Positions 14,096 through 63,248 of a stretch of DNA of 64,000 nucleotides are shown here, in pieces (positions within the stretch are counted from its first letter, which is position 1; each line of letters opens with the position of its first letter). Source of the stretch: Owenia fusiformis (taxonomy: Eukaryota > Annelida > Polychaeta > Sabellida > Oweniidae); contig CAIIXF020000004.1 of the NCBI GenBank assembly GCA_903813345.2, forward strand, positions 10,114,196 through 10,178,195, read 5' to 3'. A program made the translations under genes and the position numbers. The notes below the pieces were generated by a model, which searched no databases, was not told where the DNA came from, and was given only the letters and a program-made list of their open reading frames with translations.

Positions 14096-17000
14096 ATGGA
14101 TTTCAAAATTTATGAAGACGATTTAGAGCAGTCTGTTACTATGACAACCACGGATAATTCCCAGGATTCATTGATGCAGAGAAAACGGGGCCGTTTGAAA
14201 CGATTCGCCCATGGTCTAAAAGATAAAATAAAACCCATGAAATTAGGGAGGAAGAGAATCCTAAGTAATAGTAATTGGGATTTATCAAATGAAAATGATG
14301 AAGAGTTTGCAACAACTAATGAAGCAAAGCTATTAAAGCTAGGGGGCTCCCTAGGGGATTTCCAAAATGAGAAATTGAACTCTAGACGCAGGAGTTATAG
14401 CATGCAAACATTGTATAACATAAGTGAGAATATTGATGATGTTGGGCCCCACGGGGATAGTCAATCTATTGGTATTCGCAACAAAAGTATCTGGAATGAA
14501 AATATTAATGAGATATCCGAAAACCAGAGACCATCTAGTAATGCATCATATGGGAAGACATCAAATTCAAATATAAGCCTCCGTAGCGAACATTCATTTG
14601 ATGTATCAGGCCGTACGTCGAGATCCTCAGTGACGTCTCAGCTAGATTCTGCGGAATCATCGCTAAATGTGTCCTCTTTGGAGACATCTGGTAACCATAG
14701 CAACCAGGGCTTGAACACAAGTGCAGTTTCCGTGCAGTTAAAAAAGAAGCGAAAATGGACGAAAGGATTCACCGGGTTGTTCACAAAGCATATGAAACCA
14801 CGGAGACACACAGTTGTCGTCGATAAGGATATTCTTGATAAAATCCAAAAAGGCCCCTTGGTAGACACATACCAAGACCCCTTAAACACAGAACAAAATC
14901 AATCTGACTTTAAAGCACAGATCAATAACCCAAATGACCAGACCAGCGTCAGGATATCAGATGTTGAAATTACCCAAACTATTGATGTAAAGTTTCTACC
15001 AGCGGAATGTGCAATCACAGTGGGGGATACTGAAAGTGAAACACCTGTAGTAGATACAACTCATCAAAATAAAACAACTGATAAAATTAACACAGAATTT
15101 GAAAGTGGAAATACCGAACAAGATATTGTATTCTTGGATGATGAAGATGAATTAAAACAAGGAAAGGAATCGGAAGTTATATCTGAGTTTATTGAGACGG
15201 ATTCAAACAGGATATCAAATGTTGATGATATAGATTACCAGAATGGACAGTTAGATGCATTGGGAGATAGAAACATAATCAATAGGAGTTTGATTACGCA
15301 AACACTCTTGACGCAAAACGCAATTAGAGACGATATAATACAGAACACGCAACTGGAAAATTACAGTGTTATATCCCAAGAGGATAATTTGGGAAGCTAC
15401 GCAAGGAAAAGTCTAATCACCCAGAGGAAGAGAGCACGAATAGGGTCTAGTTCTGATATTCCTCAGCACATTGTCAACATGGATTCAGTTCAAACAAATC
15501 CAATTGAAACATCTCAAAAGTCCATTGAGCCTAATGGCAAATCAATGAGAAGAGTCAAAAGTTCAAATCTTCCCATTAGACGAAGCAGCCGCATACCCAG
15601 AATTCATACTAGGTCATGTGATACCCTCAAAATCCCAGCTGGCTCATCCGTTAACCCTGTTGATCCCGAAACATCTCCCAAAAATAGCACTGCTAGTGAT
15701 AATTCGAAACTACTGACAGGTCTATCTAGGCATAACATAGGGTTTAGCAATAGACCTAGGATACATACCCAGAGTGAAGGCCAGGATACTGTTTCAGTAA
15801 GTGGAATAAGATTAGGATTAACCCATAGGGGATTATCAGGATTAACTGTCAAATCTCCAAGGGATAAACAAGATCAGTTGGATTCTGGAGTTTTAATAAA
15901 CAAAATTGAAGCAAGCCAAAGAGGAAAAATCAATACTGTAACTGAAATTGATCCTAATATGACAGAACAGCGATTTATTTCCAATAACAAGACATTAATT
16001 CATGGAGGGAATCCCCCAATTAAATGTCATGTCACTCCTGAGACTCCATCCCTGATATCCCAAGATATTGATCATGTGACCTCATCGGGTCAAAGGGATT
16101 CCCCTAAGGGGTTTCCTCAATCAAGATTGACCACTAAACAAAACAACAACATTGAACAGCTGGGAGGACAGTCTAAAAATAACTCAAGCAAAAAGCAGAT
16201 GGCATTGAAATCTAAAAATAGCAGACGTGACCAGGCAGATTCATCCAGTGGGATCCAGATTGACAATTCATTAGACATCAATCACTGTAATCTAACAGAC
16301 GATTTGGATGAAATAAATTGTAATGTCAGTGGGAATGATGGATACTCTGATGTTCACACACCTGTAGACAGCTTGACTGATAACAGTCTGGAGTCAATTG
16401 GGAACACTGTCAGACAGGCTACAACAGGTGTAAATGAGACCAATACAGGTTTATTGAGGGGATACATGGATGGACATAGCATGTGTAATTCTAAATCTGG
16501 AGTTTTAGAACAGACAGGTAGCTTAAATGAAAATGACCTTTCAATAATGGATACCTGCCAGCTAAGCAATAATACAGATCAGAGGAGAGATAGCATGAAT
16601 GAAATTTTAAATGAACATCACCTGGCTAGTGACACAACTGACCAAAATATTGGATTAACAACACTGGAGGGTATTTTGTCCCCTGGGAGTAAAAGACGTC
16701 TTGCAAAGCCAGCTGTGGCTACCATTGGAAAGAACACAAGTGGGACATTGATCCCTGGGACTTTTATCCCTAGTCCAAGCAAAATGCCAAGATTGAATAC
16801 AAACAGGAGGAAAAGTCCCTCGAAGAATGAATCCGCTGTTTCAGCTCAGAATTCCAATATCACCATGGAGCTTAGGAAGCTTGGTAACCATAGCAACAGA
16901 TATAACCAGCCGAAAAATATGGAGAAATCAGCCAACTGTAATTCCAATGATGAAATAAATACGCCAGAAGTTTGTAATCAAACTCGGAGCCAAGATGTCA

Positions 17001-20000
17001 AATCAACCGTGAATATTTCACCAATTGTTTCTATTGATAGTGACCTGCTGAATAAATTGATAGCAAACCCAGAAAATGAATCAACAAAATTACTGAGCTC
17101 TAGCCAAAAAACAGCCATGAAAAATAAACCCAGCGGGAATATTAGCCAGGCTAAAATAAACACTACTAGCCCAACATTTGGAAGCAATAAATCACAGCAG
17201 GATGGATATCAAAATGTTAGAAATGAAATAAATACAGGATTAGATAATCAGGGGCCCATTGCGCAAAGTACACCTGTAGCTAATGAGGATGATGTAGTTG
17301 ACCATGAAAATAATGTAACTGACCCCAGGAAAATGGCAACTGAGCTACAAAGTGAGCCAATTCTGTCTAATGATGCAATTATTAACGATATAATTACGAG
17401 TAATGATAATAACATAGACCACCATAGTACTACAGGTAGCAATGAAACTGTGCCTACCAGAGCAGAAAATGACACCAATAAGAAAAACAAAACAAACAAA
17501 AATAAACCTGAACCCCCACAGGGCAAAAAGATAACTTTGAAGCCTGAAAGAAAACTGAGGAGTTCTTCAAGTGCAGTCAAAAAACCAACGGTGCTTCCCC
17601 AAGGTAAATTGAGTACATCTGTTGGAAAAACAAGCACAGGAAAACTGAATGGAAACCCTAGCAAGAACGCAAGGAACCCCTCAAAGAGCTCTACTATCAG
17701 AGCATGTTCTTCTAGTAGTCTAAACAAATCACCTGTAAACAAACCTCCATCCTCAGCTACTTCATCTCTGCAGACAGCTATGCCAATTAAAGACCCCAGC
17801 AGCATCCAAATGGAGGAATCCAGTGAAAAGAAAACATTGAATAATAAATCCCAGATATTAACTCGGTCAAGTGGAACAAAGATGGGCTGTATCAGAATTG
17901 AGGATTCCAGTGAGAAGAAAACATCAAACCAACCCAAGATGCTTACTCGATCAAGTGGAACGAAATCAAGTTCAAGTAATCTGAAGCCCCCCAAAAAGAT
18001 AAACCTCAGTTTCAATTCAAGTTCCTCTTCTTTGCCTGATGTGAATGGTAACATAAGCATTGAGAGCTGTGATTCTGTATGTGATGTTTCCAATACATCA
18101 CCCGGGGTGTCTTGTAACACAACATCAATCAATCCGGGAGCCAGATATACCAACTCTATTAATAACCATCTGAACCAGGATCATAACTCTGCATCTACTG
18201 CTAAAAAGTTCAACACAACCTCATCTCCAGCTGAGATTACTAATATCTTATCCGAGCAGAAATCTAGAAACTCCTCATCAATTTCACACCTGGATGATGA
18301 TAAATCTGATAGCAGTTTCGAGATCCCCATAACTGAAGGTGATACAGCTAAGGTCAAGGGTCAGGGTACCATAGCAACAATGGGAGAATCAAAGAGGGTT
18401 CAACCAGTTGTCAAAGATCAAATCAATCCAATTCAACTCTCAGAAGCAGCTGCCCGTAATAAAAATCAAACACAAACATGTGACGTTAATGTAAAAACAC
18501 AGATGTTGACTGCTGGTATATTACATAATAACCCCTCCGAGCCAAAATCTCACAGTAATAACACACACAACACACATATAAATAAAACATGTAATGTAAA
18601 CTCAGATGATCTACCAAAATCAAAACTCAAGCAAATGAAATATCAAAAGTCGAACTCAACCAGCAAGATTCTTTTGCTACAGTCTTCATTACACCAGGCG
18701 CCCAGTAGGGGAACAGCATCTATGTCAGATATTAAAATCCACGAGAAAATTAACAGGAAGGAATTCACAGTTGTCGGGGGTAAATCAGAGCAGAGTCCTG
18801 TGTTGACTAAGGAAGGTACTGTTGATGCTGAATTAGAAGGGATAAGGATAAACTCACCTGGAGGATTATCTCATGTAGGATTATCTCATCAAGGATTATC
18901 TCATAAAGGATTATCTCAGCTTGGATCTGATAATATTAGTACGAGCGATGTTGGTACCAGCTCAAGCGGAATAATTACACCTCAGAATCCACAGATAACT
19001 CTTCAAGAACAGCGCAGTAGTTTAATATACAGACCGGCATCTGGTTCTGGGAGCATTATGAACTTGAAATCTACTGGAAAAGGTGCAAGCCATCAACATA
19101 ATTCAACATTAATGGATCGGCCGACATCCACAGTCGGGAATGTATTGAACCTAAAGGGCACAGGATTCACTGGAAGGATAGAATGCGAGAATGAGGACAT
19201 AACGATGAATGATAAACAAGTCAAAGTACGACCGAAACGTAAGACAGCCACTATCAACACTACTTCAGGAAGTGCACTGACAGGTAAGGATAAATCAAGC
19301 AGTAATAGACTTAAACAAGCACCTGGATCCGTTGATATGAAATTGAAATCAACCGTTGAAACAACTGGAGTTAAAACAGGAAGGAATCGTCATGTGAGTA
19401 GCTCAGATATTACGTCAAAAGCAAAACGAACCACAAGGTCAAGAAATGTTAGCGATGCTGGAGTTATTAATGACGATTTAAAGCCACGCCTAACTGCCTG
19501 GGCGGCTAAAGCTAATAGTAAAGCTATGGGGAATAAAGTTGGAACTAAAGCAACCAATGGGGTCCAGTCGAGGGCCACATCCAAGATAGATGCAGGCAGA
19601 TCAACAAGATCAGCTAGTGTTACATCACATAATTCTAGTGTGACATCACAAAATTCAAGTTTGACATCACATAATACCAGTGTGACATCACAAGACACTA
19701 AAAGGACAAGAAGTGGAAGCAGAACTACAACTCAAAGGAGATCTATATCTTCAAGGAATACTTCAATCAATCAACATGATGGGTCTTTATTGAAAACATC
19801 AAAATTGACCTCATCTAGACACAACAATGGCAGCCAAAGTTCACTCCACAGTTCATCACAAGCATCACATCACAGTTTTACAAGTGACACAAGTTCAAGG
19901 TCATCGAAAAGTGACAAAGACAATTCAAGGAAAGTTAGACCATCTTTTAAAGCTACCACAAAGACGGCTCCTGCGCAGAAGGAGATTTCTAAAAATAACA

Positions 20001-22311
20001 GTGTCGGAAATATTAAGCGGACTGATAAGCAGAAGTCACTCAGTGCAAGCTCTCTGGGATCTAATGGCACTGGAGCTGCACCAAAATCCCAACAAACAAC
20101 TTCCAAATCCCAACAACATACAACTACACTCCACCAAAAGACCTCAAAATCCCAACAAGCCAAACAAAAAGACCTAACCAAACAAACCAAGCCATCACTT
20201 ACACATAATGCTAAACAGCAATACCAAAAGCCGAAGTCACAAAACCAGCTGCATTCGCCGAATAAGAAAGATTCCAAGAAAACTGTTGATGCTAAAAACA
20301 CACTAAACAAAGAAAGGCATAACTCAGAAACCAAGAAACATACAATGGTATTACGTAGTTCAACAAGTGGTTCAAAACTCCCAATGCCATTCAACAGATC
20401 AAACACACCCCCTACAAGGGTATCACATCAACAGGGAATGACAATAAGTAATGAAATTTTTGATAAGGGTAGCCAGCTGATTGATGGAAGAGCAATTGGG
20501 CCAAGTATTTCCATTGAAAGTGGTTTTGTCGGCTCCCCTGAATCAGTTGATGTTGAACTCGGTGGAAATTATGAAAAGGAGGCTGACCTTGAGGGAACAT
20601 ATGAGACAGAGGCTGACCTTGAAAAGAATCATGAAGAAAAGTCTGCATTCAACAACTCGAGATATGAAGATGTTGATTCTGAAAGAGCCAATCATGAATG
20701 TACAGAAAATCCTAATGAAGATTTAAATGAAGAGACAGTAGAAGAGATTTACCCAATTGCCAAAGACAGACTTATGAAGCCATATGATAAAGACACAACA
20801 GATGAGATTAAACAGCTTGTTGATAATGCAGACACTTTTGATGATGTTATTGTAATTGCCAAATGTGTCAACATTGAAGCTGATGAAGGTCCTTCAGAGA
20901 ACAACAATAATCCTAAAAGTAATCCTGAGAGAGTAAGCCATATTGAGAAGAATGAGAGCATTCTCCCTGGAGCAGATGAGGTCAAAAATGATATGAATGT
21001 CCTCCCAAGAGAAAATGATACTGAAGAGGGATCAGTTTTTAATGTTGATGACATTGCTGACTATTTCAGTGGACTTAATGAAAAAGAAGCCATAAGTACT
21101 GAACCCATCATAAATCAAGAGATTGGAGGATGTGATGTTAAGCAGGAAGAAACTGTTGCTCATATAGATCAACATGAAGACAATGATGCTCATATTGAAG
21201 AAGATGTTAATTACGGAAAGCTTCAATATGGTTCCGAAAGTAAGATTGAAGACAATACTGGAACTGTGGATAATATGGAACACTATGTTGAAAGTATTAT
21301 GCCAACTGAACAAAAAACTGACCTTGACCTGGCAAATGTCAGCTTTGATGAAGAACTAGAAGTCACTGAAGTGAATAAAATAAGTGACCAAGAATCAACC
21401 ATGACACCAATAAAATCTGCTGAAGTTTCAGTTGAGGACAGGTCCATGGACGAAACTTCTCCGATGGGCAATGATTCTGTCACTCTCGCCTTGATGGTGC
21501 ATGATGATGTCATAATGAACAGTACGATCGTGACACGGTCGCCTATGGCGCTCAGAGTAGGCGAGATCAGCCGGCTTACTCCATTGAGTTTTAAGATTGA
21601 CATGAATGACAGTAAAATGTCACTGGAAAATACTATCAATGACGATGTCAAAAACAGTGATGTCAAAAATAATGATGTCAGAAATGGTAGTCGAGATGTC
21701 AAAGATAGTGATATTAATGACAGAGACACAAAACATTCCACTGGAAATGATGAAGACGATGAAGACTTCACAAGTTCCAGAAGAAGTGAACCTGAGATAG
21801 CAGACAATGTTCAAGTAGAAAGCGACAAGCTTCTGAAGAATTTCCCCAAAATTAGAGACCTTGACATTAAAGATGCCTCAGTGATTAAAGATGATATTGT
21901 AAAAAAATCCATACGCCATAAATCTGACCCTACTGTCACCAAGTCAGCACAACTCAGAGATGTGAATAAACAAAAAAGGCCTAAATCTGACTCTGATTTG
22001 GCAGATGTTACATGTGATAGTGTAACTCAGGGCTCGAAATACGTCCTTGTAAAGTATCCAACAACATATTCAAGTCCAAGAACATACACCAGTGAGTCCA
22101 GAATAGATACAGATAAATCTCATGTCGCAAAAGATTCCGAGACGGATGAAAAATGTGAGAGTCAATTTGCAAAAGAAGCCCAAGATACGGAGCAGACGTC
22201 ATTGAAACTCAGACAGAAACATGCATCCGAGCCTTCGTACAATAGAGGTTACCATGGTGACCAACTGAACAAAACAATCGCTGCAGACAGTCCCAGCAAG
22301 ATATTGGATAG
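14096..22311 (+). CDS. Giant first coding exon A, 2,738 codons, disordered
   Basis: An uninterrupted frame opens at an ATG with A at -3 and G at +4, with an in-frame TGA at 14078. It ends at the strong donor AG|GTGAGT, splitting an Arg codon completed by the next exon. The protein is Ser/Asn/Thr/Lys/Asp-rich and lacks any recognisable fold. Features in order: a basic segment at residues 29-54 (KRGRLKRF core); a second basic aromatic segment around Trp221 (KKKRKWTKGFTGLF); a duplicated ~28-residue unit at 1237-1290 sharing LTRSSGTK; four GLSH repeats at 1590-1609; four VTS-type repeats at 1842-1868; a basic Ser/Lys/Gln-rich zone to about 2100; and an acidic zone from about 2150 to 2570. A cytoplasmic scaffold or cytoskeletal role is inference. 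Long antisense frames inside it are shadows of its codon bias. Confidence 0.9.
17804..17965 (+). repeat. Duplicated ~28-codon unit inside exon A
   Basis: Two adjacent units share IxMEESSEKKT/IRIEDSSEKKT followed by LTRSSGTK. The DNA is also similar, so this is a local tandem duplication within coding sequence, not protein-level convergence. Confidence 0.8.
18863..18922 (+). repeat. 15 bp coding minisatellite (GLSH repeats)
   Basis: Four in-frame copies of GGATTATCTCA plus four variable bases encode GLSHV, GLSHQ, GLSHK and GLSQL. The period is a multiple of three, so copy-number changes keep the frame. An isolated related GLTHRGLSGLT stretch occurs earlier in the protein (near 15818). Confidence 0.9.
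19619..19699 (+). repeat. VTSH/VTSQ tandem repeats in exon A
   Basis: Roughly four ~20-24 bp units encode VTSHNSS, VTSQNSS, LTSHNTS and VTSQDT. SQ dipeptides of the sort used by PIKK-family kinases recur in this zone, but low-complexity drift explains them equally well. Confidence 0.8.
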
Positions 22312-24647: not shown

Positions 24648-24912
24648 GAAATACAGTCTCCCATCATCGCTGAAGTTAAATCCTTCCCACAAGTCGTCAT
24701 CAGCTTCCTCAGCAATGGCAAGGTTATTTGGGAATAAACCGAACCCTCGACAAATTATCAACCCTGCATCGTCAGCATCCACCATGAGGCCATTGGCCAC
24801 CTCTAAGATCACACCAGGGACCCCTGAAAGGAGTCGGGTGGAAGAACAGTTACGGCTTCTATCTCAAAGCCCTACGAGTCCTACCAACAAAAGTCACAAA
24901 AGCCCAAGTCAG
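24648..24912 (+). CDS. Exon 2 of the A transcript
   Basis: The acceptor TCTTCAG and donor CAG|GTAGG frame 265 bases. The first base completes the split Arg codon of exon A, and the exon ends in phase 0. It encodes about 88 residues including KYSLPSSLKLNP, AMARLFGNKP and a short charged segment ERSRVEEQLRLLSQSP, followed by NKSHKSPSQ. It is Ser/Pro-rich with several SP/TP sites. The phase fit on the left is exact. On the right, the next phase-0 exon that stays open is at 59534: joining to the block at 47674 would hit a stop within seven codons. An internal ATG at 24715 exists but need not be used. Confidence 0.83.
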
Positions 24913-27337
24913 GTAGGAAATTGAAATTATTGTCTCAGGAGAGGCCATGCTACATTCATCAACAGCTGTCCTAGAAAAATTATTAAATTTATTAACAGGA
25001 TAATATCTTGGCTTGAATGTCAATTTATTATTTTTCATTATTCATGTTATTTATCCCCATATTGAGTTTGGGGATATCTTATTTAATTTCATAATATTTT
25101 ATTTCCATTTTGAACAAATGGAGATATAACATTCAGATTGAAGTATAGCTTAGGAGTGTCTTACTTTCTTACTATGCAGTATGTAAAAACAAGAGTACTT
25201 GATTGATAGTTCTTTAGGCTGAGGCAAAATGCCTCACTCTGAATTTAGTTTGAGTTTATAAAAATGCCATCCCCAAACTGATTCATCCTTCATGATTTCA
25301 TATTTACAGAAAATATGCTTTTTATCATAATCCATCAAATGTGTATGTTTAGATTGCCAAAGTATTTTTTAACTTCTGGAATTCATACTGAGTACCTTTA
25401 ATTACAAGTTGATTCCCCATCGATCCTATTGGGATTCATTGTTTACATTAGAGTGTTTTTACTGTAAAACTCACGTTAGCCGTAATTAGAGTTTTCCTAA
25501 ATCCCTTAGCAATAGGGCCAAACTGACAGACATATCCTTCCTTTTCAATTCGGAAGACGTCATGGTTCTTGATTTTTGAAACAAAATGTTGCATTTTTAA
25601 GAAATTCTCAAAATCGTTGTCTATATGTTTAATTCGCACATCTATTGTTAATACTTTAGATTAAGGTAAGGGATTCCATAAGATAGCATACTTAGAATGA
25701 GTAGCTAGGCTAGATCAAGTAATTGTGTCTTATGTAAGAGTGTATAAGTGGAACTAGTAAAAGGGTAAAGAAAACAGGACTGTAGCCAAGGGGCTTTGAG
25801 GGACACCCATCTCCCTCCAGCCAAAAATTATTTCAAGTCATGCAGCTTCTCAACATTCTGAGCACTTTTCAAATGATTTTTGGCCAATGTGTTGTAAAAA
25901 GCTGGCTACGGGTCTGGAAAATCAGTCTATCAGTAAATACTAGATTTGCAGACTATTTGAGGCAGAAAATCAAATCAGGTCTTAAGACTAGATAATTGAT
26001 GGAATTAACCCGATTTCTTCTTATTTAGAGCACATGTATATTTTGGGTTGAAATATTGGAAAAAAAAATCAGATGAGCTTAAATAATTTTGTGCTAAGAA
26101 TGCATTCAATGATATTTCAGTATTGCATTACATTTTGACAACTTGGTTAACTCAGAATTTATACATTCCATGTTCTTTGAATATTGAAGGCAAAATCTCA
26201 GTCCCATAAACTTCATTAAATGTATTGTTCATAGTGTATGAACATCATTCATTTTTTACTTTGTATTCTATGTTTCCTAAATTTTGATTTAAATTGAGTT
26301 ATTCGTTAGCCTTTAATAAGTAAAATTGGGGGAGTTTAAAACAGGAGCCTTTAAGATGAAATTCTGAGATAATTAAACAATGTACATGTACATGTATTTG
26401 TGAAGTATACATATGATAGCAATATAGAAAGGAATATCAAAAATAGTTTAACACACAGATGTATGAAATGCCTTCATTTCATTTTTTTGTGTACTAAAAA
26501 TAACTCAGGATCAGGACAGAATACTTGACTGTATTTCGCTTTAAATTGTCATGCAACATTGGTGTTAAAAATAACTTTTTGATATTATGAAGTCTTGAAA
26601 AATGTAACATGAAATATGCCAAGTGAATCAAATATATCCTTCCAAAATCTGATAAAATATTTATATCCAAAGTGTAATTTTCCTTTAACTAGTACCAATA
26701 TTGCATGCAGACAAACAAAGCAGATTTCTGCTTAAAAATAAGACATTCAATTAAGGCATGTTTGCTTCCTTTAATTATTATAAAATATATCAGCTCTGTG
26801 TGTATTCCCAAAAACTGCCATTTCTGTATTTTCTCGGATATTTTTTGCTTAAGTCATGCCACGGTCTGATGATAGCTTGTTTCATTTTTAAACGGTATAT
26901 TTTAGAGTATGGTACTATATACCGTACCGTTTGAGTATGGTGCCATACACTATTCGAATATACATGTACTATCGCAATATACTGTTTGAATCTAGTGTAC
27001 CATATTTCACTGTAACATACAGTACTGTAGCCAAGATGGTTCTGTATAGGGTACTTTTGGAGATTGGCTGTCTAACTGAGTATCTCTAGTGATTGCTGTT
27101 TCCAAAATAATCCCCCATAACATCATATTTAATAGAATATTTCTTGTTCAGAAAACAACATAGCATGATGTTTAATGTAACATATCAAGAAAATAATTCA
27201 ATCGGAGAATTGGAGAATATTTATAATCTTAGATTACCGCTCGGGGAAATATTTCTTTTGATTACAAATCATAAATATCTCGAAATGTTAACTTCTCTCG
27301 GTATCATTTCTTCGTTTTATATCAATAGTTAGAATGA

Positions 27338-32525: not shown

Positions 32526-33581
32526 CCAGGTCGTTCAATAAGTTCATGCAAAAACACTCTCATTTTTTCATTTTTCAATTTTTTTCCTTGAAACTTCCAC
32601 AAATCATAGAAAAAAATACCTACTCATTGAAAAACAAAAAAATAAATTACTTTGTTTTGATTGGTCAAAAGTTATGGTTGCTATGGTAACCTGTGTTTTG
32701 GTCACGCGGGGCAATTTATGACGTAAAAAAAGTTTAATCTTAATTGAATTCTTGTGATTTATTAGTTGCACATTAGATACACTCAGTCTATAAAACACTG
32801 TCCTTTCAAATTGAAGTCCCTATCAAGCATGTCACTTCACTAAATGCATAGTTCCTGGCGCTTCATCCATTCTTCGTATTGAACCCTAAAGCCAAAAGGG
32901 AATTTAGTGTGTCACCTTAAGCGAGCTCTTCAAAAGAAACAGCCTGAAATTACGCATTTCTCCAAGTTATTTCACCAAGACAATGCCCCATGTCATCGAG
33001 CAAATATGGTTCAGGATATCATCTGAGATACCCTACAGATGGAGATTTTAGACCAGGCTGCATACTCCCCTGATGAGGCTATATTGGACTTTGGGGCGTT
33101 CAATATGATGAAAGACGAACTGAGGTGTTCGTTATGCAAGCATGACAGAGCTCACTGCAGCCGTGCAGAGTGCTGCACTAAATTCCCTGGCTTTAGGGCT
33201 CAATACGAAGAATGGGTGAAGCGCCAGGAACTATGCATCCAGTATAAAGAAGAATATTTTGAGCATTAATGAAGTGAATTGCTTGTTAGAAACTTCAATT
33301 TAAAAGGACAATGTTTTATAGAGTGTACCCGGCTAAGGTGCAACTAATTAATCACAAGAATTCAATTAAAATTAAAAAATTTTCACGTCATAAATTGCCC
33401 CGCGTGACCAAAACACAGGTCACCATAGCAACCATAACTTTTACCAATCAAAACAAAGTAATTTATTTTTTCGTTTTTCAATGAGTAGGTATTTTTTCTA
33501 TGAATTGTGAAAGTTTCGAGGAAAAACATCAAAAGATAAAAAAATGAGAGTGTTTTTGCATGAACTTATTGAACGACCTGG
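32526..33581 (+). mobile_element. Mariner-type transposon remnant with inverted-duplicated 3' end
   Basis: TA dinucleotides flank termini CCAGGTCGTTCAATAAGTTC (left) and its complement (right), the hallmark of Tc1/mariner insertion. The arms are far longer than normal mariner termini: about 385-405 bp each (left to about 32912, right from about 33175). The left arm is not a transposase 5' region. It is an inverted copy of the right end, including codons for the transposase C-terminus (CTGGCGCTTCATCCATTC on the left against GAATGGGTGAAGCGCCAG on the right). The ~260 bp centre keeps one more transposase piece. A full mariner is about 1.3 kb, so the 5' half is gone and the element could not transpose by itself. 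Confidence 0.85.
32917..33269 (+). pseudogene. Mariner transposase C-terminal fragment, broken
   Basis: The frame encodes HQDNAPCHRA (second catalytic Asp with the usual DNAPCH context), a premature TGA soon after, then AYSPDEAILDFGAF in place of the usual PYSPDLAPCDF-like block, and a C-terminal WVKRQELCIQYKEEYFEH resembling the mariner W-x-K-R...C-I...YFE ending. About 115 residues remain of an expected ~340. The first catalytic Asp and the DNA-binding domain are absent. The Pro and Ala of the SPDLAP block have drifted, so this is an old copy. Confidence 0.85.
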
Positions 33582-36790: not shown

Positions 36791-39491
36791 TACTACATTA
36801 CAGTCATACAGATTCACAGAAAGGCATTGAAAGGAAGGACATATTTAGCATTAGACCGTGATGACACATTCTATTCAAAAACTTAAAAAAATAAATTGAA
36901 TCATTAGACTGACAAGTGTTAAGTGCTACAGTTGTATGAATTTCATTAAAAACAAGTTGAAAGGATAAAATACTTGTAGGAAATCAAATAAGTGCTGGTT
37001 TCAAGTTGGAACTTGGCTGTTTTAATTTCCTATGATTGGCATATGAACTGATGGGAGCAAATTATGCTACAATTTGAAATCAACTATACATCCTATCATT
37101 AGGAGAAAATTTGGATTTATTTGGATTAAAACGGATTGGATTTAGATTGGATCAACAAGTATGTAGACTCATACATGAAGATATTTCATGAATTTTTTAC
37201 TCTTTATCTATTATGTACAAGGGTCAGTGATTTAATGAAGATATTTTTTTGCATTTGATCAGGTTATCCAGTAAAATAACTAAAAACTTTAAAACTGCAT
37301 TAGGGCCCAGTCAACCATAGAGCTTTGAAAGAAAGGACATCAGTGCTGTTTTTATATTATATTAAGGGGAAAATAAGGTGGGGAGGGTTGAATAGAGCTT
37401 GTTGTTTAATATTTATTTTTTATTTATTTTAATGTTTTTATAATAACCTCATTTTGACAATTTTTAGAGATTTCAACATGTTTCTTCCCATGAATAAAAT
37501 GTTTAGTTTTTCTATCTTGTAGAATTTCAAGTAAGCAAAATATTATATTGGTAATATACCTGTATGAATTAGTCTGCTGGTTCCACTTGTTTTCATCCTC
37601 TTTCAATATCAAACGTTGAAGCATCGTGACATTTTAGACAAAACAGCTTGGTCGTTTTGCTCTCTCGATTTCAAATAGCGGTAAGAAATAGCAACTGTGA
37701 GAGAGAAAAAATATGAGTTCATTTGACAAAAATGTTCTGAAATAAGTTGTAATAAATTGTCAACAAACGGTTATGAAGGTTACCATGGCTACCATGCTCT
37801 CATTCGGACATATTAATCTACAGATTTATATCAACTTGCATTTTTTGTTTTCTTGGGATATGGGTACAACCTGTCAATTATATAGGCAAAAATATAGTAT
37901 CATAACATATAAACATAACAGACATATTCAGAATGGAACGGCTAGATTTGATATATCTTATTTTTAAAAAGTGTTGAAAGAGGGAATCTCTAATATGAGG
38001 GAAGGGGTGGCACAATTTATAAATTGACAACTTATGCCTCAGTCTTATTTATCTATGGCATCCGTAAAGCAGCCGTAGCTCCCAAAATCGAGAGAAATCT
38101 TCAGCAGGGCTGAGCAGTATGATGTGGATTTTCTATGTCAATAGATTACACCCGCCATAGAGAAATTCCACAGTGAATGTTAGAAATCAGAAAATATATT
38201 GTACCATTAATTGTTTTGAATTTTTCACTCTGATATGTCAGCGTGTACCAGTAAACATAAACTTTTAAGGCAAAATCAAAGTAACATTGTATACCTAAGC
38301 CTCTAGCTAACGTTCACAACATGTTAAAAAACTTGTACGTTTCTTTGAAGTTCTTGAGCATGATTTATGCCATGTTTCTTTAATGTTAAAGTAGAAGAGT
38401 GGGGAGGGGGCTATTTTTATAAGGAGGGCAATGTGTTCTCATTTTATGATTTGTAGGCAGGCAGGGAAGAGAAAATGATGCTTTGAATGTGTGTTCTTGA
38501 GGGCTATCTTTGGGATTCACAGGGATGGTGTTCAAATAACAGCAGTTGTTGAAAATGAAGTTGATATGGTTATGGTTTATAAATGTTAATTTCTGTGAAT
38601 ATCAAGGTCCAAAAATCAATATTTTTCACAAACAAAATATACATTCCCCAACCTCTGCCAAATGAACTTAACATTATCTTCTTCAAGTTTTGATTACAAA
38701 ATTCAAAATAAGCAGCCACCCCTGTTTTCTTTACCAACTAGTGTGTTGGAAGATTTATAGTCAAGTAATAGGAGTGGGTCACAGTAGTTCAACGTCGTTA
38801 AACTCAATAACGGCGTTGTTTATTATTAAGAATTTTCTTGGGGCCATTATTGAGTTTAACCTCTTTACTATTCTTTCCATTGATGCAAGTTTTGGATCCA
38901 CCGAAACCATTTTTCCGCGATAACATGCAACTGATACTTGACAACAATATAAAAACACATAACATCAAGCGATTCAACACAATATTATTGTATTAAATGG
39001 TCATTTATACAAGTAAAATGAGGTTAAACTTACCAATCTCTAAAATGACATTTCCGCATGTCCTTCATTGTGTCTGTTCGTCCCGGGTTAAAATTTAAAC
39101 TATTGAAACGAAATTGTTGTCAAATAGATTGATAATTATCACGCGATTACTCGGGATAAAATAGCCATTTTTGAGGATAGCAGGTATCTTTGATTGATTT
39201 ATATAGCGCTTGTATACACACAAAATCGTTATTAATTGCAAACCTACTGTTCGTTGATGCAGTGTCGCAATGACGGTTAATTCCTGATACGATTTGCAAT
39301 GTCGATGTTACCGGAGCTGACCGATATTTTCGTAAAATTCCAAACCTGTCTCCAATATTTTCGTAATTATGCATCAATATGGTCTAAGGGGGGTACGGGA
39401 TGGTGTGTATGTATTTATAAGGTATGTATGCATGCTTGAATCACATTCTTTATGTAATATTACCATGTTTTCGGAGTTTAATTAGTTCCGC

Positions 39492-39729
39492 ATGTCGAAA
39501 CCTGCTGAACGATTAAATGATCGCAACAAGGGCAAAATCATCATGGAAGTTAGACCTAGCCGGGGCCATAAGACATGTCAGATAAGAAACGAGGCCCAGG
39601 CTAGGTCTAATGTTGTTGGACTAGGGTCACAGGGGCTTGTAGCTACACTACAATACCTAAATGAAGGTTCTCCTGAACTCACAGCACGTTTTACTTCTTC
39701 GATACCATCCCTCATCTTAGATTTCCTAG
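39492..39729 (+). CDS. Candidate alternative first coding exon D
   Basis: An ATG frame with an in-frame TAG at 39483 encodes 79 residues starting MSKPAERLNDRNKGKI and containing GLVATLQYLNEGSPEL. It closes at TTCCTAG|GTATGA, which leaves phase 1. The preceding ~400 bp is unusually CpG-rich for this window, as a promoter might be. Phase 1 does not fit exon 59534 but does fit exon 60501. It could equally be the start of a separate nested gene or a chance frame. No family is recognised. Confidence 0.33.
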
Positions 39730-47065: not shown

Positions 47066-47695
47066 CTGCCTACCTTAATCCAGTCTTTTTTCATTTCATA
47101 GATGCTAGAAGCAACCTGTCTGACTTCTCACTTATATTATTTCTCATAAACATAACTGTCAGTGAATGCTGATAAACCAGCTAAGTTTGTTACTTTTTAC
47201 TCTTTAACTTACCTATTGCGTATGAATAAAAAGTTGGAGCTTTACTTGGTTTAAATCTCATTGATGAAATAATATTCCAAACTTGTTTTGCAAAAATCTT
47301 AACATAAGATCAATTTTTACTAAGTGACATAAGAAAAGTTTTAAGAAAGGTATTCACACATTTGATGATTGTGAACTATTTTTGAGATATATAACATAAG
47401 GGGAAGGGGTAGGGGGCAAGACTTGAAGCAAGGCAAAACTAAACTATTGTATGATTTGATATTATTCTTTGTTTCTTTGATGTTTCCCTTACTCTCTTGG
47501 GCCCTTAATTTTCCTGCTATGTCACTGAACAAGTATGTCCCGTAAAGAAGTTGGTTCTCACTTGACTTACTAAAGATTCAGGCATCCTTATCCCATAGCT
47601 GGATTATCACTAAAATTTTGTACATAAAAATGTAAACAAATATATTTCTTATAGTGGTTATTATCTTTTGTAGGGGCAGCTATTAATACTATAAG

Positions 47696-50600
47696 ATGAG
47701 TAGCAACAAAGGTTATAATCCACTTCATATTAACAGGGATTATACAACAACGCAAACAACCACATCAGGGGATTATGGGAGATTAACAGCAAAACTTTTA
47801 CAACTAAGTGAAAATCCTACAACACCCATCCAACCGCAAACAACAACTTTCTGGAGACCAAGTCAAAAGGGGGATAATCCTGGTCATAAATGTAACAACT
47901 TTATTTCATCAAATGGTGTTAAACGTATTCAGACTATACACACATTGACACATGGTGAATCTGAGAAGTGGAAGTCTGTGAATGGACATATAGGAAATGG
48001 AGAAATATTAAACCAAAATACTACATTATCACAGGGTGATTCCAACTCTATAGGAAATTCAGATTTATCATTTGGAAACAAGAAGGAAGCAAATCGTACC
48101 AGTGTAATATTACAACAGACTGGAGATAATTACCAAACCAACCAAAATCAAATTAATCATTTTATCCAATCACACGGGTCACAAAATCAAAGCAATCATG
48201 CTCCTCAATCAACAAGACCTCATTCTCAATATATAAACACAGTTCACCAGAATTGCTCTGAGCCACAAACAGGAGTTATTAACCAACCCCAAAATATCCT
48301 AAAGGATGATGTATACAGTAACCAATACAGCCAAAATGATTACATAGACTCGTCTAACAGAAATAACTCTCAGTATATTCACCAAACTCCAGGTAATATA
48401 TACACCAGGTGTGAGCCAGAACTTGGCATTTCAGATACAGTAACAAACGCACAGGGTTCTGGATCTGCTTCAAATCAAACAAATCTAGATTTCACTAATG
48501 TTCATATTACGCCAGAAATAGTTAGGAGCTCTTCAAGTATATGTGTTCAACCTCAGGAAGGTATCACTAATTCATATTCGCAAAACAAGATCTCTGCTAC
48601 TTATGTGAATACATACCAACAAGATTCCAATGGTTTACTGAGGTCTAATAACTCACCAGCCACAAACTCTGGATTAAGTACAGGGAATATACATGATCAG
48701 CAGTATGCATCATTCAGAACTGATCTTAACGGAACAATAACAGACAAAACTGGTTCTCTTTGCTCAGCAAATGGGAGCTCATTTCATAAAGTTACCGGAG
48801 ATTCTGCGACTACAAAGCGACCATTTTTCATCAATACTGTGAATGGACATAATTTTCGGATAAATCAATGTGATCAAGAGATAGCCACTAATTCCAGTGA
48901 GGTTAATACATCATTCAAATCAAGCACACCACATGGAGTAGTCAATCCTGTCAATGATCAGGATGAACCCATTGGGACAAAACTGACCACAAGTGAGGAC
49001 TTATCTGATTTGGATTATGATAACAATTTCGACCAGTCAGATGAATTGACACTCGAGCCTATTCGTATAGGTAACAATGTAGGATCGCCAACATCTCCTA
49101 CCCCTTCGTTACGTGTCTATGATCAACTCCTCCCAGGGGTAGAGTCTGACTCTAGTATGAGTCACCATAGGTTAAATCGATACAGCGGTGGGGGTTATAA
49201 CACCCAGCCACGCCTACTAGGTATGCATAGTCCCACATCAAGTTCCTACACCCCTTCTGGTTCTTCAAGTGCATTTACACCATCTCCAGGCACTTATGCT
49301 ACTTCCTCTGCAGGCTCATACAAGTCTTCAGCAAGTGTATTGACACCAACATCACGTTCATACAACCCTTCTTCATCAAATGTCTACAGCCCATCATTAA
49401 GTTCATACAGATCACCTACGGGCACACATGGTAAAATATCCACTATTAACATTCCGAAAACTAATGTCGACAAGCACAAAAATGAAATCAGACGTGTTAT
49501 CCACTCTCCAAGTCCCCAGGGTAAATCCCTGGGAAATGTAACTGCAATAACGAAAAGATTTTCAGAGCCGAGGACATATGAAGGTTTGTCAAGCCACGGG
49601 TCACCAAGACTTACTTATATCAGAAAACTTGATGACCCAGGATCAACACCACACAGGCAGCCTTCTAGTAGTTTCTCCTCGGGAACATACAAAACACATG
49701 ATAGTGCTCAATTGAATAACAATTCGCCATATTTAAGTTCAGGGGTGAATAAATATTCTGGAGTGAATAAATACTCATCTCCTATTGGACAATCATATTT
49801 AAGCAAGCCCAGTGATCCACCAAGGTCACACTCACCTTATGATAACATCCCATCAAGCTCAGCTTCAAACAATCATCATGATCCAACTTTGATATCAAAC
49901 CAACCACGTCTTGTCCATCTGCGCTCTTCAGTACGCACAACAAGCCCAGCTAGATCAAATCTTAAATCTAACGAGCGTGAAAAGTTCATGTTATCTACAG
50001 CAGATCCAGTGACATTCCCAAGTACATCACCTGACACCACCAGTATTCCCGCAATGACTTCAAGCATGGCTGAGACTGGGACTCCAAAGCTTGTTCATAT
50101 TCAACGATCCTCCAGCGATCCAGTCCCCGATCAACACCTTTTGAACATAACCACAGAATCAAAGGCTAAAAAGCCACAGTTGTTGATAGTAAAGACTGAG
50201 AGCAAGGCTAGTGGTAATGCAGAGAAGACCAAAAAGAATGCACAAACAAAATCAGATTACATAAGTAGCAACACTGACCTTCTGAAGTTAGCCGAGGATA
50301 AGACTGATACTTTAACAAAGAGTAGATGGGGGAGAATGAAAAGTGCAATGAAACTAAAGCAACTTGATACCAAGACCCCCAGACAGGATAAAAGCCCTAA
50401 AAGAGACAAAAGCCCAAACCAAAGCAAAATTGAATCACCCAGTGGAAAAACAGAAAATGAAGAAAAAACAGGCAAACAAAAGCAGGACAGCTTTCAGAAA
50501 AAGGAAAAAATTCAAATGAGGACAAAAAGTTTAGATTCTTATAAAATGAAACCAAAGGGTACAACTCAGCCTATCAGTATTAAATCTCTAGAGAATGAGA

Positions 50601-51934
50601 CTTCCCAACAAATACCAAAGAAACTTGCAGCTGTTTCAGACAAACCCTCAAAATCAGCCTGGGGTAGTTTAGTAAAACTTGTTGTTGCAAAACATAAGCA
50701 GAGTAAAGATGATCAGAAAACTACAAAATCTGATTCTGAACTTTCGAATAAAATCAAGTGTGATGATACAACTGAGAAAAATGTGAAGAATGTTTTGAAG
50801 AAATCACAGTCAGTTAAAAATGTGAATAAAGGATCTCAGAGAGTGGACATTCCATTGCACACTACCACAATTGATTCAAAACTTGCAGCAGAAACTGAGA
50901 CAAGCCATACTAAAAAAGTCAAAACACTTGGTAATTGTAAACCAAAATCACCAAATGAAAAACATTCGAAGAGAACTCCAAGTGGCTTTCGTTATAACAG
51001 AATTGAACGTTCTGATTCAACATCTTCGACTTCCTCCATAGATGAAGTATCTCCTACTAAAACTAAACCTGTACATTTTCGGAGGAGATCAATTTCTTCA
51101 TCGTCATTGTCGGATTCTAGCAGTGGTTCCGGTTCAGTGAAAAGTGTTAGAGTTAATCCAAAATCTGTTGGAAAATATACCAAATTAAATACGCAAAATT
51201 CGCCATTCTCAAAAGGAGGCTGGGCGAAAGTGAAAACCGCAATGAAAAAATCTGATAGCAAGCATAAGCAAGATGCTCTGATAAAAGCAAAACACCCAAG
51301 TGTAATAGGCGACACTATAGAAAGTTTACCTAAAGGTAATAGAAAAGAAATCAGTGATAGTCAAAATAAACAAAATGAGATAAGTAAAGTAAATCAGGAG
51401 AAGCAACAGCTAAGCGTAGATTCACAAGGGAGTGAACATGAAAATAATGAGAGTTTATCAACTCCGGAGCAGAATACAGCTGTAGATTGTGATAAGGTAC
51501 CCATAAATAAATCACGTTTAAATCAAGGTGCTGTGAAACGAATGGATTCCCTCAAGGTTGAAACTCCACGTAACAACGACATCTCTGACACTAATGAGCC
51601 TATATCTGGACAAAGTTCCGCAGATGAGAGCTGTCTGTCATCGCCATCGCCAAAACCTGACATTCCGAAAAACCGCAAAAAAGCGAAGAAAACAAAATCA
51701 TATTGGTCTTCATTACGTAACTCTATTCCAACTGAGAATCAGAATTCTGAGGATAATTCAAACTTAAATAATGGAAAAACAGAAATGACGACTAGGGGTT
51801 CAGGCTCCATGTTGAGTGATTCTAACATAAAAGGGTTGGGATTTTATGGGGACTTACCTGCCAAGGAAATAGGCGTATTGGAATATCTCCAGAATTATAA
51901 AGATAGAATTGAGAAGCAGATACAAGAGACACAG
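47696..51934 (+). CDS. Long first coding exon B, 1,413 codons, disordered
   Basis: An ATG with A at -3 follows an in-frame TAA at 47684. An acceptor-like TTTTGTAG ends at 47673, so a 22 bp 5' UTR part probably joins an upstream non-coding exon. The frame ends in phase 0 at CAG|GTAAGT. Regions: Asn/Gln-rich and prion-like (about 140-430); a Ser/Tyr/Thr/Pro low-complexity stretch (about 510-580); then a Lys/Ser-rich part with four Trp-centred basic segments at Trp878 (SRWGRMKSAMKLKQ), Trp989 (SAWGSLVKLVVAKHKQ), Trp1176 (GGWAKVKTAMKK) and Trp1337 (SYWSSLRNSI); and last a likely helix EIGVLEYLQNYKDRIEKQIQ near the end. No named domain is recognised. It replaces exon A and exon 24648 at the N-terminus of the shared body. 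Confidence 0.87.
49228..49420 (+). repeat. Ser-Tyr-Thr-Pro low-complexity repeats in exon B
   Basis: Successive units of about nine to eleven residues carry a Tyr after Ser/Thr (SSYTPS, GTYATS, GSYKSS, RSYNPS, NVYSPS, SSYRSP). The DNA is degenerate, so it has been stable long enough to diverge. Confidence 0.7.
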
Positions 51935-52773
51935 GTAAGTCACTAATGGACTTCACATAATTTTTAGGCACAGTTTTCAAAAACAAAAAGTGGAAAAATC
52001 TTAATTTTGTTATCTATTTACCTCCTCCCTCCCAATTTTATGAAATGGACCAAATCATAATTAACCCCCACTCCCTCTTCTAAGAAAATTCAGTGAATTC
52101 TGCTACTGTTGTAATTTAGACACACTTCAGTATCTATAGTAAGAATTTTGTAATTCACTCCAATATGGTTATACACACCAAATAAATAACTGTGAGGTGA
52201 CTGAAGAAAGTGACCATATTTGATGTCCATGTGGTTTAGTTGCCAAACAGGCATCCATATTTTTTTCTATTTTGGTAGAATTTTGTAATGTAAGAGCATC
52301 AAATGACTGGTGCTAGACTTACTGCTGAAATCCTGGTATTCATTCATCTCTGTGTTTATTTGAGTACATAATGAAATCTTCTGTGTTTGTGGACTCTGTG
52401 AATAGCTCAAGTTAGAACAATATTACCTTGTTGGCATTTTGATGAAAAATAGGTTTTGAATGTTAGCTGACTAGTATTCATGCACTACTTGGGCACATAC
52501 CATGTGTGTCTATTGCATGGGTAAAAAGCTTATTGTATCAACTAGGTATATATAATATTAAACAAGTTACAGGGATATTGTGTTAAAAGTGTAGTTATAA
52601 AATGTAGTCTTAGTACCCCTCCTCCTTCCCCATTAGTAAATCCATTACATACACATGCCTTGTACACAAGAGTGGGGAAGCAGGTAGGTGAGAGGACAGA
52701 TATACAGTGAGGTTAGTTTGTTGCAAATCAACCTGACAAGTCAGTTGAGAAATACACTAAACTATCACATGTA

Positions 52774-53418
52774 CAGGGTGTCCCGAAAGTATGGGGCCCC
52801 CCCCCCTAGGCAGACATATACCAGTGTCGTCATAGTATGTGTCATATATCATTTTAAAGCTTATCCAAAGTTACATTGATTTGCCAAGTATGGTGGTTTA
52901 ACTCCCAAATGGGAAAAAGTTACAGTCATTTTAAAAGTTAGTGTTTTGTCAAAATAAAGTTCAATTTTACACCACACTACTAGTCAATGAGTCCCCCTTT
53001 GGTCATGTTAACAGTAGCAATTATTTTCAGATATAACCTTAAAAGCCCTTCAAATAGGGGTGTGGAATTTTATAACCCTCTTAAAACCTGTTAGGCACTT
53101 TAGAAGAGTTTCCTTAGAGTTTCTACCCTCACCGTTCTCTTTTTCCAACTCAATATCCATCCGACTCGAAAAGAATTGCTGCTGTTAAGATGGCCCGGAA
53201 GGACACATTGACCTGTGATTTGGTGTAAAATTGAACTAAAATTTGACCAAACACTAAATTTTAAAATGCCTGTAATTTTTTCACATTTGAGAGTTGAACC
53301 ATTAAACTCGGCGAATCAATGTAACTTTGGATAAGCTTTAAAATGATATATGACACATACTATGACGACACTGGTATATGTCTGCCTAGGGGGGGCCCCA
53401 TACTTTCGGGACACCCTG
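52774..53418. mobile_element. 645 bp near-complete palindrome, mariner-type ends
   Basis: TA flanks both ends. The termini read CAGGGTGTCCCGAAAGTATG and its complement. The arms stay complementary almost to the centre: ATATACCAGTGTCGTCATAG, CTTATCCAAAGTTACATTGA and GTTAACAGTAGCA all have inverted partners, leaving an unpaired core of at most about 100 bp near 53040-53150. It is non-coding. Expressed as RNA from the intron, it would form a long hairpin. Confidence 0.85.
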
Positions 53419-53824
53419 TATTGTTAGAGGGCAATCACATAGAGACAAATGTATGTGGAGTTAGCTTCATATATGTATTCTGGGATATCCCCCTCTTGTC
53501 AGCCACAGAATAATGTCAGGAATGTTTCAGTGATGATTACTTACCAGGGAATATAATGACTTGCTCAGTTCATGTTTACACTCTTAAACAGGGGAGAACA
53601 CAGGGGATTGATTTGAAATAATGAAAACAGGCAAGGAGTAAACAGTCCAATTCGTATTGAAAATTAGCTCCCTTCTAATTTGTAGAAAATAGTCCACTTT
53701 GCAAATTCCAGGGATTGAGACTCCGGGGGAAGATGAAACTGCTATTTTGTTGTTTATTAAAAAGTACCCATTGATATTCCCATCGAATCAGCTTAATAGA
53801 GTAACAATGATCTTCCTATTTCTC

Positions 53825-54899: not shown

Positions 54900-55052
54900 A
54901 TGAAGAAATCGTTTACTGAATCAGATGTTCTTACAATGGAAGATTTGATAAAAATGATAAGACCTTCCCGTGAAGAACTATTTAACTTGGCACCAAAGAG
55001 AATTAGAAGAAAAGTGCAGATTTATAATGATGCAAATATTCTTAGCTTTGAG
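54900..55052 (+). CDS. Short first coding exon C, 51 codons
   Basis: An ATG with A at -3 and an in-frame TAA at 54882 opens a frame that ends in phase 0 at TTTGAG|GTATGT. It encodes MKKSFTESDVLTMEDLIKMI, a short PSREELFNLAPKRIRRK basic helix-like segment, and IYNDANILSFE. The phase matches exons A/24648 and B, so it could provide a third, compact N-terminus to the shared body. A chance frame of this length with a good donor in the correct phase is possible. Confidence 0.5.
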
Positions 55053-55134
55053 GTATGTGGTAGCTAGTACATGTATATACTATAGGTGTCATGATTACAG
55101 GGTTTCATGATTTGGGCATGTTCTCATTTGATTG

Positions 55135-56568: not shown

Positions 56569-56779
56569 ATGAGTCAAATTGATGAAATTGCAAGACTCAT
56601 AAGTAAATGCATTAACAAAAGTTATTTGAGGAATATATCACAACATGTAAAGCACTTGTACTCTGGATCGGAGTCTGTGATGAGATATTCTTATGCAATC
56701 ATTGGATATTTTTTAATGAATTTAAAACATACATGTAAGAGAAATAATGACAAAGTGGAACATCATTTGGAAAAACCAG
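56569..56779 (+). CDS. Candidate alternative first coding exon E
   Basis: An ATG follows an in-frame TGA at 56563. It opens 70 codons (MSQIDEIARLISKCINKSYL start) closing at AACCAG|GTATAT in phase 1. It would fit exon 60501 but not 59534. Composition is plausible for protein but not distinctive, so it may be a chance frame. Confidence 0.22.
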
Positions 56780-56796
56780 GTATATTGTTTTACTTT

Positions 56797-59533: not shown

Positions 59534-59738
59534 GCTGTTTTGAAACAATACGATGCTGCATCACCGACTCAGATCACCTTGACACCACCTATCGAGTCTC
59601 CTCACCCAGAAAAGAGGGCAGCACCACAGTCGTCATACAGACGGACACCATCTGATTCGCTTACTTTAGAACCACCTCCAGAATACAAGAGAAGTTCGTC
59701 CCTTCCCACAGCTTCGCTGTTGTACGGGCAAGACCCAG
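59534..59738 (+). CDS. Shared-body exon 1
   Basis: The acceptor TTGTTATAG opens phase 0 and the donor CCAG|GTATTT leaves phase 1; 205 bases. It encodes AVLKQYDAASPTQITLTPP, then RRTPSDSL and YKRSSSLPTASLLYGQDP. RRTPS and KRSSS are basophilic-kinase or 14-3-3-type contexts. It is the first exon that fits the phase-0 ends of exon 24648, exon B and exon C, so it marks the point where the alternative N-termini converge. Confidence 0.83.
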
Positions 59739-59802
59739 GTATTTATGAACATCTCTTTTGTCATGTCTCTTGTCATTGTCACTCTTGATATCATTTCTCA
59801 AC

Positions 59803-60367: not shown

Positions 60368-60440
60368 CAGGGTGTCCATAAAGTCTATTTTCACAATTAC
60401 AATACAAAGGTTAAAGTGTAAAGACTTTATGGGTACCCTG
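60368..60440. mobile_element. 73 bp mini-MITE, mariner-like ends
   Basis: Flanked by TA on both sides. The left end CAGGGTGTCCATAAAGTC pairs with the complement of GACTTTATGGGTACCCTG. The inner TTTTCAC and GTGTAAA also nearly pair. Confidence 0.7.
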
Positions 60441-60500
60441 TATATCAAAATGCAGACTAAAAGGATCAGGATTAATCAAGAATCACTCATTGCATTCCAG

Positions 60501-61981
60501 GAACATATAAGCATCTGATAGTGCCCATATATTCAGACTCACCAGCAGACGGCCAAGAGCATTATGGGAAACAAAATGGCCACTCTGGAGATGAAACCCC
60601 TGAAGATACAATGAGGTCAAAGCTGTTTGATTTAAGCCCAGTGCTAGAACAATCGCCAAATATGGACGGGAGTTTTACGAGAAGGAGTACATCAAATTTA
60701 TTAGAAGACAGCACCCGAAAAAAATCGGCATATTCAGATGTTGAACACGATTTTAATAGGGATAGGAGTGAAAGTGATTTTGAAGGAAACGTCAATGGGG
60801 TAAGGATTCTTAGAAAATACCCAACTGCACCCCCAGGGCTTCGGCGTTGTCAGAGTTATACAAACACGTCCTCACTACGCTCTAGTAACGACATCTGGTG
60901 TCCAACGTCACCACAAAAGTCACTCGAAACAAGTCCACAGTCTGATAGTGAACTATTATCTCCTCCAAAAAAACTCACACCTAAAAGTCCTGGATTTTTA
61001 CGTAAAGTTTTATTACTTACAAAAGCCACTGGAGCTCTAAGGAAAAAATTCAGCCTTAGTAAAACAGATATTTCAAAAGATATTGACTCAGAGAAAGACC
61101 AAAATGGGAAAAATTTACGACCAAAAAGTGTTCCAGCAGGGTACATGCCAGATAGTGATGTGAATTTATCAGATGTTTATGATCCTCAACGAGGGTCACA
61201 GTCAGATTTGGCATCCCCACTAAGAGGTGATGGCTTACCCCCTCTCGCGATGTTCAGTAGCGATGAAGACATTATTGACATTTCCGGGACTCCAAAATTA
61301 CGACGTAATAAAACAGCCCCAGAGATGAATCTATCAGAGCATGTTAATGAAAATTTCAGTCATCTTCCACCAAAAAGTCCTCGGAAAAATTCAAAGGGGA
61401 ATTTAAATAATTCTGCAGCTTTAAGAAAGCTAAAACAGTCTCGTAAACATTATTCCGCGGATCAAGCAGTGCTTGACCGCATGTCATCAAATAGTGACCT
61501 TGACTCTGATAGTCAAGGTCAAATTGAAGGTCATCATTCCAGGACATTTTCTCTATCTGGTTCAAGCTCTGAAGACTTGAGTGTATTATGTGGAGCCTCC
61601 CTAAACCCTCACCAACTCAGGCGACCATTACGTCCCACAAGTCCAAAACCTCGTCCTAGATCATCAGACGGAATATCTGATAGTCTCGAACCAAACTCTA
61701 ATGTTGGAGCAGATTACACGCACCTATCTGGCTTGTCTGTGGATAACCTTAACTTTACACCTGATATCATGCTAAACATTGAAGGCAATCGGGATTTGTT
61801 AAATTTAGCCCCTCCGAGGCCATATTCACCTAAGCCTTATACTATGCCTTACAAAATGGATAATTCTAATGAATGTGAATCAACGATGATTCAGGATGAG
61901 AATGAGGCTGATAATAATAACGGGAGCCATGATAGCGGGATACAACAAGATGGAGTTGCATCTAGCACTGAGTCTTTGAAG
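60501..61981 (+). CDS. Shared-body exon 2, 494 codons
   Basis: The first two bases complete a Gly codon split from exon 59534 and the frame stays open to AAG|GTGAGT in phase 0. It starts GTYKHLIVPIYSDSP. Basophilic sites recur: RRSTSNLL, LRRCQSYTN, RRNKTAPEM and RKHYSADQAV. One hydrophobic-basic segment, SPGFLRKVLLLTKATGALRK at about 60989-61048, resembles the amphipathic segments of exons A and B. The rest is Ser/Pro/Asp-rich and probably disordered, with RPTSPKPRPRSS and PRPYSPKPY proline clusters that could bind SH3 domains. The end reads ...SHDSGIQQDGVASSTESLK. DSGIQ resembles a phosphodegron core (DSGxxS) but lacks its second Ser. No family is recognised. Confidence 0.92.
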
Positions 61982-63082: not shown

Positions 63083-63248
63083 AGTGTTGAAGCTAACGTT
63101 GTTCGACGTCCACAAACAGAAATCAAAGAGAGGCCAAAGTCTGATATTGTCTCCGTGAAATGGTCCGATTCAGTGAAAGACCAGATGACATTAAAGCCCA
63201 ATGAGAGAAAGGGAAAGATTCTACGTCAGAGAGCCAAAACTGATTTAG
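63083..63248 (+). CDS. Shared-body exon 3
   Basis: Starts in phase 0 after AACTCCAG and ends in phase 1 at TTAG|GTGAGT; 166 bases. It encodes SVEANVVRRPQTEIKERPKS, then DIVSVKWSDSVKDQMTLKP and RKGKILRQRAKTDLG. It is strongly basic with RxKT/RxxT-type sites. Shifting the acceptor by two bases would give a frame that soon stops, so this phase is preferred. The gene continues beyond the window. Confidence 0.83.

Follow-up and report, generated by a model that had tools for sequence, protein, structure and literature searches.

A 64,000-nucleotide stretch of the Owenia fusiformis genome (the window; assembly GCA_903813345.2, contig CAIIXF020000004.1, positions 10,114,196 to 10,178,195 of the forward strand) contains the 5' portion of what is probably one Asef/collybistin/SPATA13-type RhoGEF gene, predicted to extend from 14.1 kb of the window to approximately 80.1 kb, its shared body running about 16 kb past the window end. 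The best reading of the locus, and in our judgement a fairly probable one, is that this single RhoGEF has two alternative giant N-termini, encoded by module A (2,827 codons) and module B (1,413 codons). Besides the window, the 20 kb before it and the 60 kb after it were read, and coordinates past the window continue the window numbering.

Modules A and B and their connection to the body

Modules A and B are real coding sequence. Module A comprises exon A1 (14096-22311, plus strand), which begins with an ATG, runs for 2,738 codons and ends in phase 2 at TAG/GTGAGT (the slash marking the exon boundary), and exon A2 (24648-24912, plus strand), which is entered at CAG/G and ends in phase 0 at CAG/GTAGGA; joined, they give 2,827 codons without a stop. 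Module B is a single exon (47696-51934, plus strand) of 1,413 codons, ending in phase 0 at CAG/GTAAGT. The frames measured from stop to stop (2,744 codons for A1 and 1,419 for B) are far beyond chance, and the codon log-likelihood ratios are +704 for A1, +25 for A2 and +334 for B, according to a codon model trained on A, B and the body exons. The splice sites score 11.1 (A1 donor), 13.0 and 10.4 (A2 acceptor and donor) and 13.8 (B donor) with matrices derived from 12-15 sites of this gene and a generic consensus, so that for sites of the gene itself the scores are circular in part. An original prediction, made from the window, had placed both modules at these coordinates and in these phases, with an in-frame stop just upstream of each start, and all of this was confirmed: the stop lies 6 codons before the ATG of A and 4 codons before that of B (at 47684), leaving B without an entry in its own frame upstream of its ATG, and the codon score of B is positive already over its first 30 codons (+5.2). 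In searches of the whole genome (498 Mb, 525 contigs) with A1 and with B, each had one place, and neither paralogues nor retrocopies from which splicing might be read turned up for A1, B or body exon 2. Comparison of A1 and B with Pfam and with solved structures gave no homology.

The exon at 59534-59738 (body exon 1, plus strand; phase 0 in, phase 1 out) is open from phase 0, as had been proposed, and is coding (codon log-likelihood ratio +22.9). Because 59534 is entered in phase 0, a phase-0 donor is needed upstream, and A2 and B provide these; each of the two modules has its own start codon and ends in the phase of the shared acceptor, with the case for a third candidate, C, being weaker. 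Taken at its true value, the phase argument amounts to a chance of 1/9, by arithmetic, that both phases would agree by accident. On the minus strand, donors scoring at least 10.4 have a density of 0.17 per kb and those scoring at least 13.7 one of 0.01 per kb, yet A2 and B have donors of this strength, in each case 9 bases ahead of the stop met on read-through. A scan of 144 kb for internal exons scoring at least 18, on both strands, found nothing on the plus strand from 24.9 to 59.5 kb apart from B and two hits at noise level (38457-38488, 18.7; 52573-52683, 18.9), and no other convincing coding partner for A or B; on the minus strand no exon reached 18 from 12 to 79.3 kb, and the 11 hits elsewhere on that strand (18.0-25.5) are at noise level or belong to other genes. 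We infer from the agreement of phases and from the scan that A and B would each be joined to 59534, as alternatives to one another.

Several observations weigh against this arrangement. The intron from A2 to 59534 would span 34.6 kb and skip B, with the other introns of the model being 7.6 kb or less (the longest from B), and the acceptor at 59534 is rather weak (6.7; such sites occur at 2.1-2.3 per kb). Of the 14 internal body exons, the scan picked up 10, including two (78324 and 78764) that it was the first to find, and missed those at 74820, 75784, 76393 and 77402; because of these misses, and because the matrices were partly trained on this gene, a small exon could have been overlooked. 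Read through its donor, A2 meets a stop after 9 bases (at 24922), and an AATAAA/ATTAAA hexamer is located at 24982, 60 bases from the start of that stop codon. B, for its part, contains phase-0 acceptor-like sites scoring up to 8.4, which would allow a fusion of A to B.

The long intron, the stop and the hexamer, together with the position of B as the nearer partner to 59534, would fit a locus in which the RhoGEF truly begins with B (possibly with C), and A either forms a gene of its own further upstream or gives a transcript that stops in the intron past A2 and encodes about 2,830 residues of free disordered protein. This is unlikely: the A2 donor is strong in comparison with the minus-strand rate given above, it stands 9 bases before the stop and in the phase needed by 59534, the scan offers no other convincing downstream partner, and hexamers of this sort are found at 2.35 per kb. 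The acceptor-like sites in B would fit another arrangement, in which A and B belong to one protein, its N-terminal region reaching as many as about 4,200 residues, either through splicing of A to a phase-0 site inside B (49520, 8.4; 48557, 8.3; 48035, 7.3) or through splicing of A1, which ends in phase 2, to a phase-2 site at 47737 (6.4). Such a fusion seems improbable, because control sequences contain 0.76-1.0 sites per kb scoring at least 8.2, so that about one would be expected in 4.2 kb in one phase and two are seen, and because B starts at an ATG of its own, preceded by a stop, and shows a coding signal ahead of the phase-0 sites.

If A and B are instead alternative N-termini of one RhoGEF, they would be mutually exclusive giant disordered 5' coding modules, each spliced in phase 0 to 59534, perhaps joined in this by the tiny third module C (51 codons), and the module would be chosen through separate transcription starts or through choice of the 5' exon. 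An acceptor-like site (score 7.4; such sites occur at about 1.5 per kb) lies 22 bases upstream of the start of B, which could therefore have an upstream exon of untranslated sequence and be selected by splicing. Promoters had originally been proposed to make the exchange; the CpG ratio in the 750-base windows holding the starts is 0.68-0.76 for A, 0.11-0.27 for B and 0.11-0.50 for C, and with a regional mean of 0.51 (standard deviation 0.30) the starts of B and C do not exceed the average. A helix spanning the junction of B with 59534 was discarded as evidence for it, having an ordinary hydrophobic moment, reached by 12% of the 22-mers of B. No RNA family in the window reached its gathering score.

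The shared body and its family

Beyond body exon 1, the window contains body exon 2 (60501-61981; about 494 codons; phase 1 in, phase 0 out), which has one place in the genome and no homology in Pfam, and body exon 3 (63083-63248; phase 0 in, phase 1 out), the last within the window. Past the window the predicted body continues with exons at 68586-68722, 73183-73318 and 74478-74620, then, from 74820 onward, where the SH3-DH-PH part begins, with exons at 74820-74999, 75419-75610, 75784-75963, 76393-76638, 76999-77115, 77402-77530, 78324-78408 and 78764-78928, the last exon probably being 79915-80087, all on the plus strand. Exon 73183-73318 was not assumed: the body model without it ran into stops, the frame required an exon with a length of 1 modulo 3, and this exon was the clear winner in the scan (24.2, versus 8.6 for the next non-overlapping candidate); with it, the body is free of stops through the PH exons.

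The translated SH3-DH part matches, among solved structures, ARHGEF4 (2dx1, E = 4.6e-111, 374 bits) and, nearly equally, ARHGEF9 (4mt6, E = 3.9e-109, 368 bits); PREX1, the strongest match from outside the family, has 132 bits, more than 230 fewer than either. Pfam identifies RhoGEF (7.7e-48), SH3_9 (8.5e-11) and PH (4.3e-10) domains in the body, so the order is that of the Asef/collybistin/SPATA13 family, an SH3 domain followed directly by DH and PH, with ARHGEF4 and ARHGEF9 as the closest relatives. The original prediction had no means of identifying the body, whose SH3-DH-PH exons are found 10.8-15 kb past the end of the window. In a genome search for such genes, five of 13 places belong to this gene and the other eight have E values of 9.4e-9 or worse; since these remaining matches are weak, the gene looks like the sole member of its kind in the 498-Mb genome.

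Candidate modules C, D and E

The original prediction counted three, perhaps five, alternative modules; A and B were borne out and C is possible, but the extension to five fails, D starting in a repeat and E not resembling coding sequence. Candidate C (54900-55052, plus strand) has the 51 codons, the phase-0 end (GAG/GTATGT at 55052) and the in-frame stop 6 codons upstream of its ATG that had been described, and there is about an even chance that it is a genuine module. With a donor of 9.4 and a codon score of -0.8 (total 8.6), C ranks first among the seven plus-strand ATG-to-donor frames listed between A2 and the body (at least 40 codons, donor at least 6.5), the others having totals of -3.8 or lower. 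It has one place in the genome and no match in Pfam.

It is only slightly less probable that all three candidates (C, D and E) represent repeat DNA or frames open by chance, leaving the gene with two N-termini only, or with B only. The codon score of C, near zero, is equalled or exceeded in 9% of 232 non-coding open windows of 51 codons, and frames of at least 51 codons with a donor of at least 9.4 number four on the unmasked minus strand of the 144 kb and one, C itself, on the plus strand once known exons are masked. Opposing this, the total of C is hard to obtain by chance in the required phase, only two of 200 simulated regions (30,035 bases each, modelled without repeats) holding a phase-0 frame that scores at least 8.5, and C is unique in the genome; D, however, scores high yet starts in repeat DNA, a warning that the simulation understates real false positives. 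Exons of folded domains score low in the codon model (the DH exon at 76393 has -15.5), and a low codon score is thus compatible with coding.

D (39492-39729) was rejected because its start lies inside a high-copy repeat (38781-39626, about 846 bases, strand not assigned) that is about 99% identical to copies on contigs C7 and C483. Its donor (6.47) falls just below the limit of 6.5, and its total would be 17.4. In the genome search with D, 40 of 1,026 candidates were scored, and 40 of the 41 matches listed, its own place included, are 99-100% identical. The repeat is probably recent, given the 99% identity between contigs; in L015, partial second copies adjoin it. E (56569-56779, plus strand) has one place in the genome but is unsupported as a module, its 70 codons scoring -11.9 in the codon model. 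The exon at 60501-61981, which had been suggested as the partner of D and E, is open from phase 1 as stated. A further open reading frame, 33027-33266, was also discarded as a module, being a repeat with at least 58 matches listed (its own place included); the listed matches to the surrounding sequence (around 32950-33350) range from 66% to 100% identity, include short pieces, and fall on both strands, with some close pairs in opposite orientation. Between B and C is a fold-back element (52772-53420) with perfect terminal inverted repeats of 32 bases and arms of 195 bases that are 89% complementary.

Character of the modules and relation to known GEFs

The modules had been described as disordered, which their composition supports for A and B, as well as for the 765 body residues before the SH3 domain, but not for C: windows classed as disordered by charge and hydropathy make up 49 of 55 in A, 25 of 27 in B and 14 of 14 in the 765 residues, compared with 2 of 5 in the SH3-DH part and 0 of 1 in C. 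No pair of modules, and no module with the body, was clearly more similar than shuffled controls (A with the body scored 84, and the highest of 15 shuffles 81). Counts were made of six protein patterns, each in three sequences, 18 counts in all. The microtubule-end-binding-like motif [ST]x[IL]P occurs nine times in A (15452-20971, plus strand, residues 453-2288), in some cases in a basic serine-rich context, compared with a mean of 3.7 in shuffled sequences (0.006, uncorrected, one of the 18 counts; 0.074 for a strict form of the motif). B has four basic repeats of the form K-[SG]-x-W-[GAS]-x-[LMV] (50327-51730, at residues 878, 989, 1176 and 1337), which contain four of its six tryptophans; their number was reached in none of 500 shuffles, a nominal result for a pattern written after seeing the sequence. 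These motifs weakly suggest that A may be targeted to microtubule ends, and B to the membrane or other sites.

The N-terminal module would set the location of the guanine nucleotide exchange factor (GEF) and the way in which its inactivity is maintained, while the DH-PH part would carry out the identical exchange reaction in all isoforms. SH3-containing collybistin folds back on its DH-PH domains and is held closed (PMC9386560), and the N-terminal module could modify a lock of this kind. A more doubtful proposal is that a single invertebrate Asef-type RhoGEF, bearing giant disordered modules A and B of different character plus a tiny third, sends its exchange domain to different cell structures by choice of the first exon, and that vertebrates have split such uses among three paralogous genes.

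Ankyrin, plectin and similar genes have giant alternative coding exons, through which one body can exchange a large region that is disordered or serves in targeting. Within the family, SPATA13 (ASEF2) is the nearest parallel, being an SH3-DH-PH RhoGEF with transcripts that differ at the 5' end and a long N-terminal form. In a 2020 paper on the human gene (PMC7233598), transcripts ASEF2a-d differ in their 5' region, isoform SP-1277 exceeds SP-652 by 625 N-terminal residues, this long form is described as previously uninvestigated, and eight of nine reported mutations fall in exon 2. Because of these human 5' forms, the principle of alternative N-termini is already known in the family. SPATA13 as described there differs from the Owenia gene in having one extra region, of 625 residues, rather than two (2,827 and 1,413 codons) and perhaps a 51-codon third, the human N-terminus having been compared by description only. 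The size of the modules and the presence of two giant ones are unusual; no pair of alternative giant modules (here 2,827 and 1,413 codons) was met in a limited look at the literature on this family, on ARHGEF4 first exons and on giant exons with alternative promoters.

ARHGEF4 (Asef), the best solved-structure match over SH3-DH, has its APC-binding region before the SH3 domain, as does Asef2, whereas the Owenia gene has no listed match there: all six matches listed begin at the SH3 edge (query positions 96-100 of 156), although the APC-binding motif is short and could be missed. ARHGEF9 (collybistin) matches nearly as well, but the variation described for it (PMC9386560) concerns the SH3 domain and C-terminus, in which the murine splice variants CB1-CB3 differ, and not giant N-termini.

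Asef-type GEFs couple Rac1 and Cdc42 to adhesion, migration and synapses. An apparently single invertebrate gene with a far larger N-terminus in two versions could reveal what the tails of these proteins do, and could show whether the family has had long alternative N-termini since early in its history. A gene predictor restricted to a single model for each locus would be likely to lose A or B, to split one of them or to merge them.

Upstream of the RhoGEF gene, an intact single-exon open reading frame of 205 amino acids on the minus strand (5034-5651) encodes a Ras-family small GTPase (PF00071, E = 1.2e-57), and downstream of the RhoGEF gene an 863-codon open frame is present on the plus strand (118166-120754 in the extended sequence, L006).

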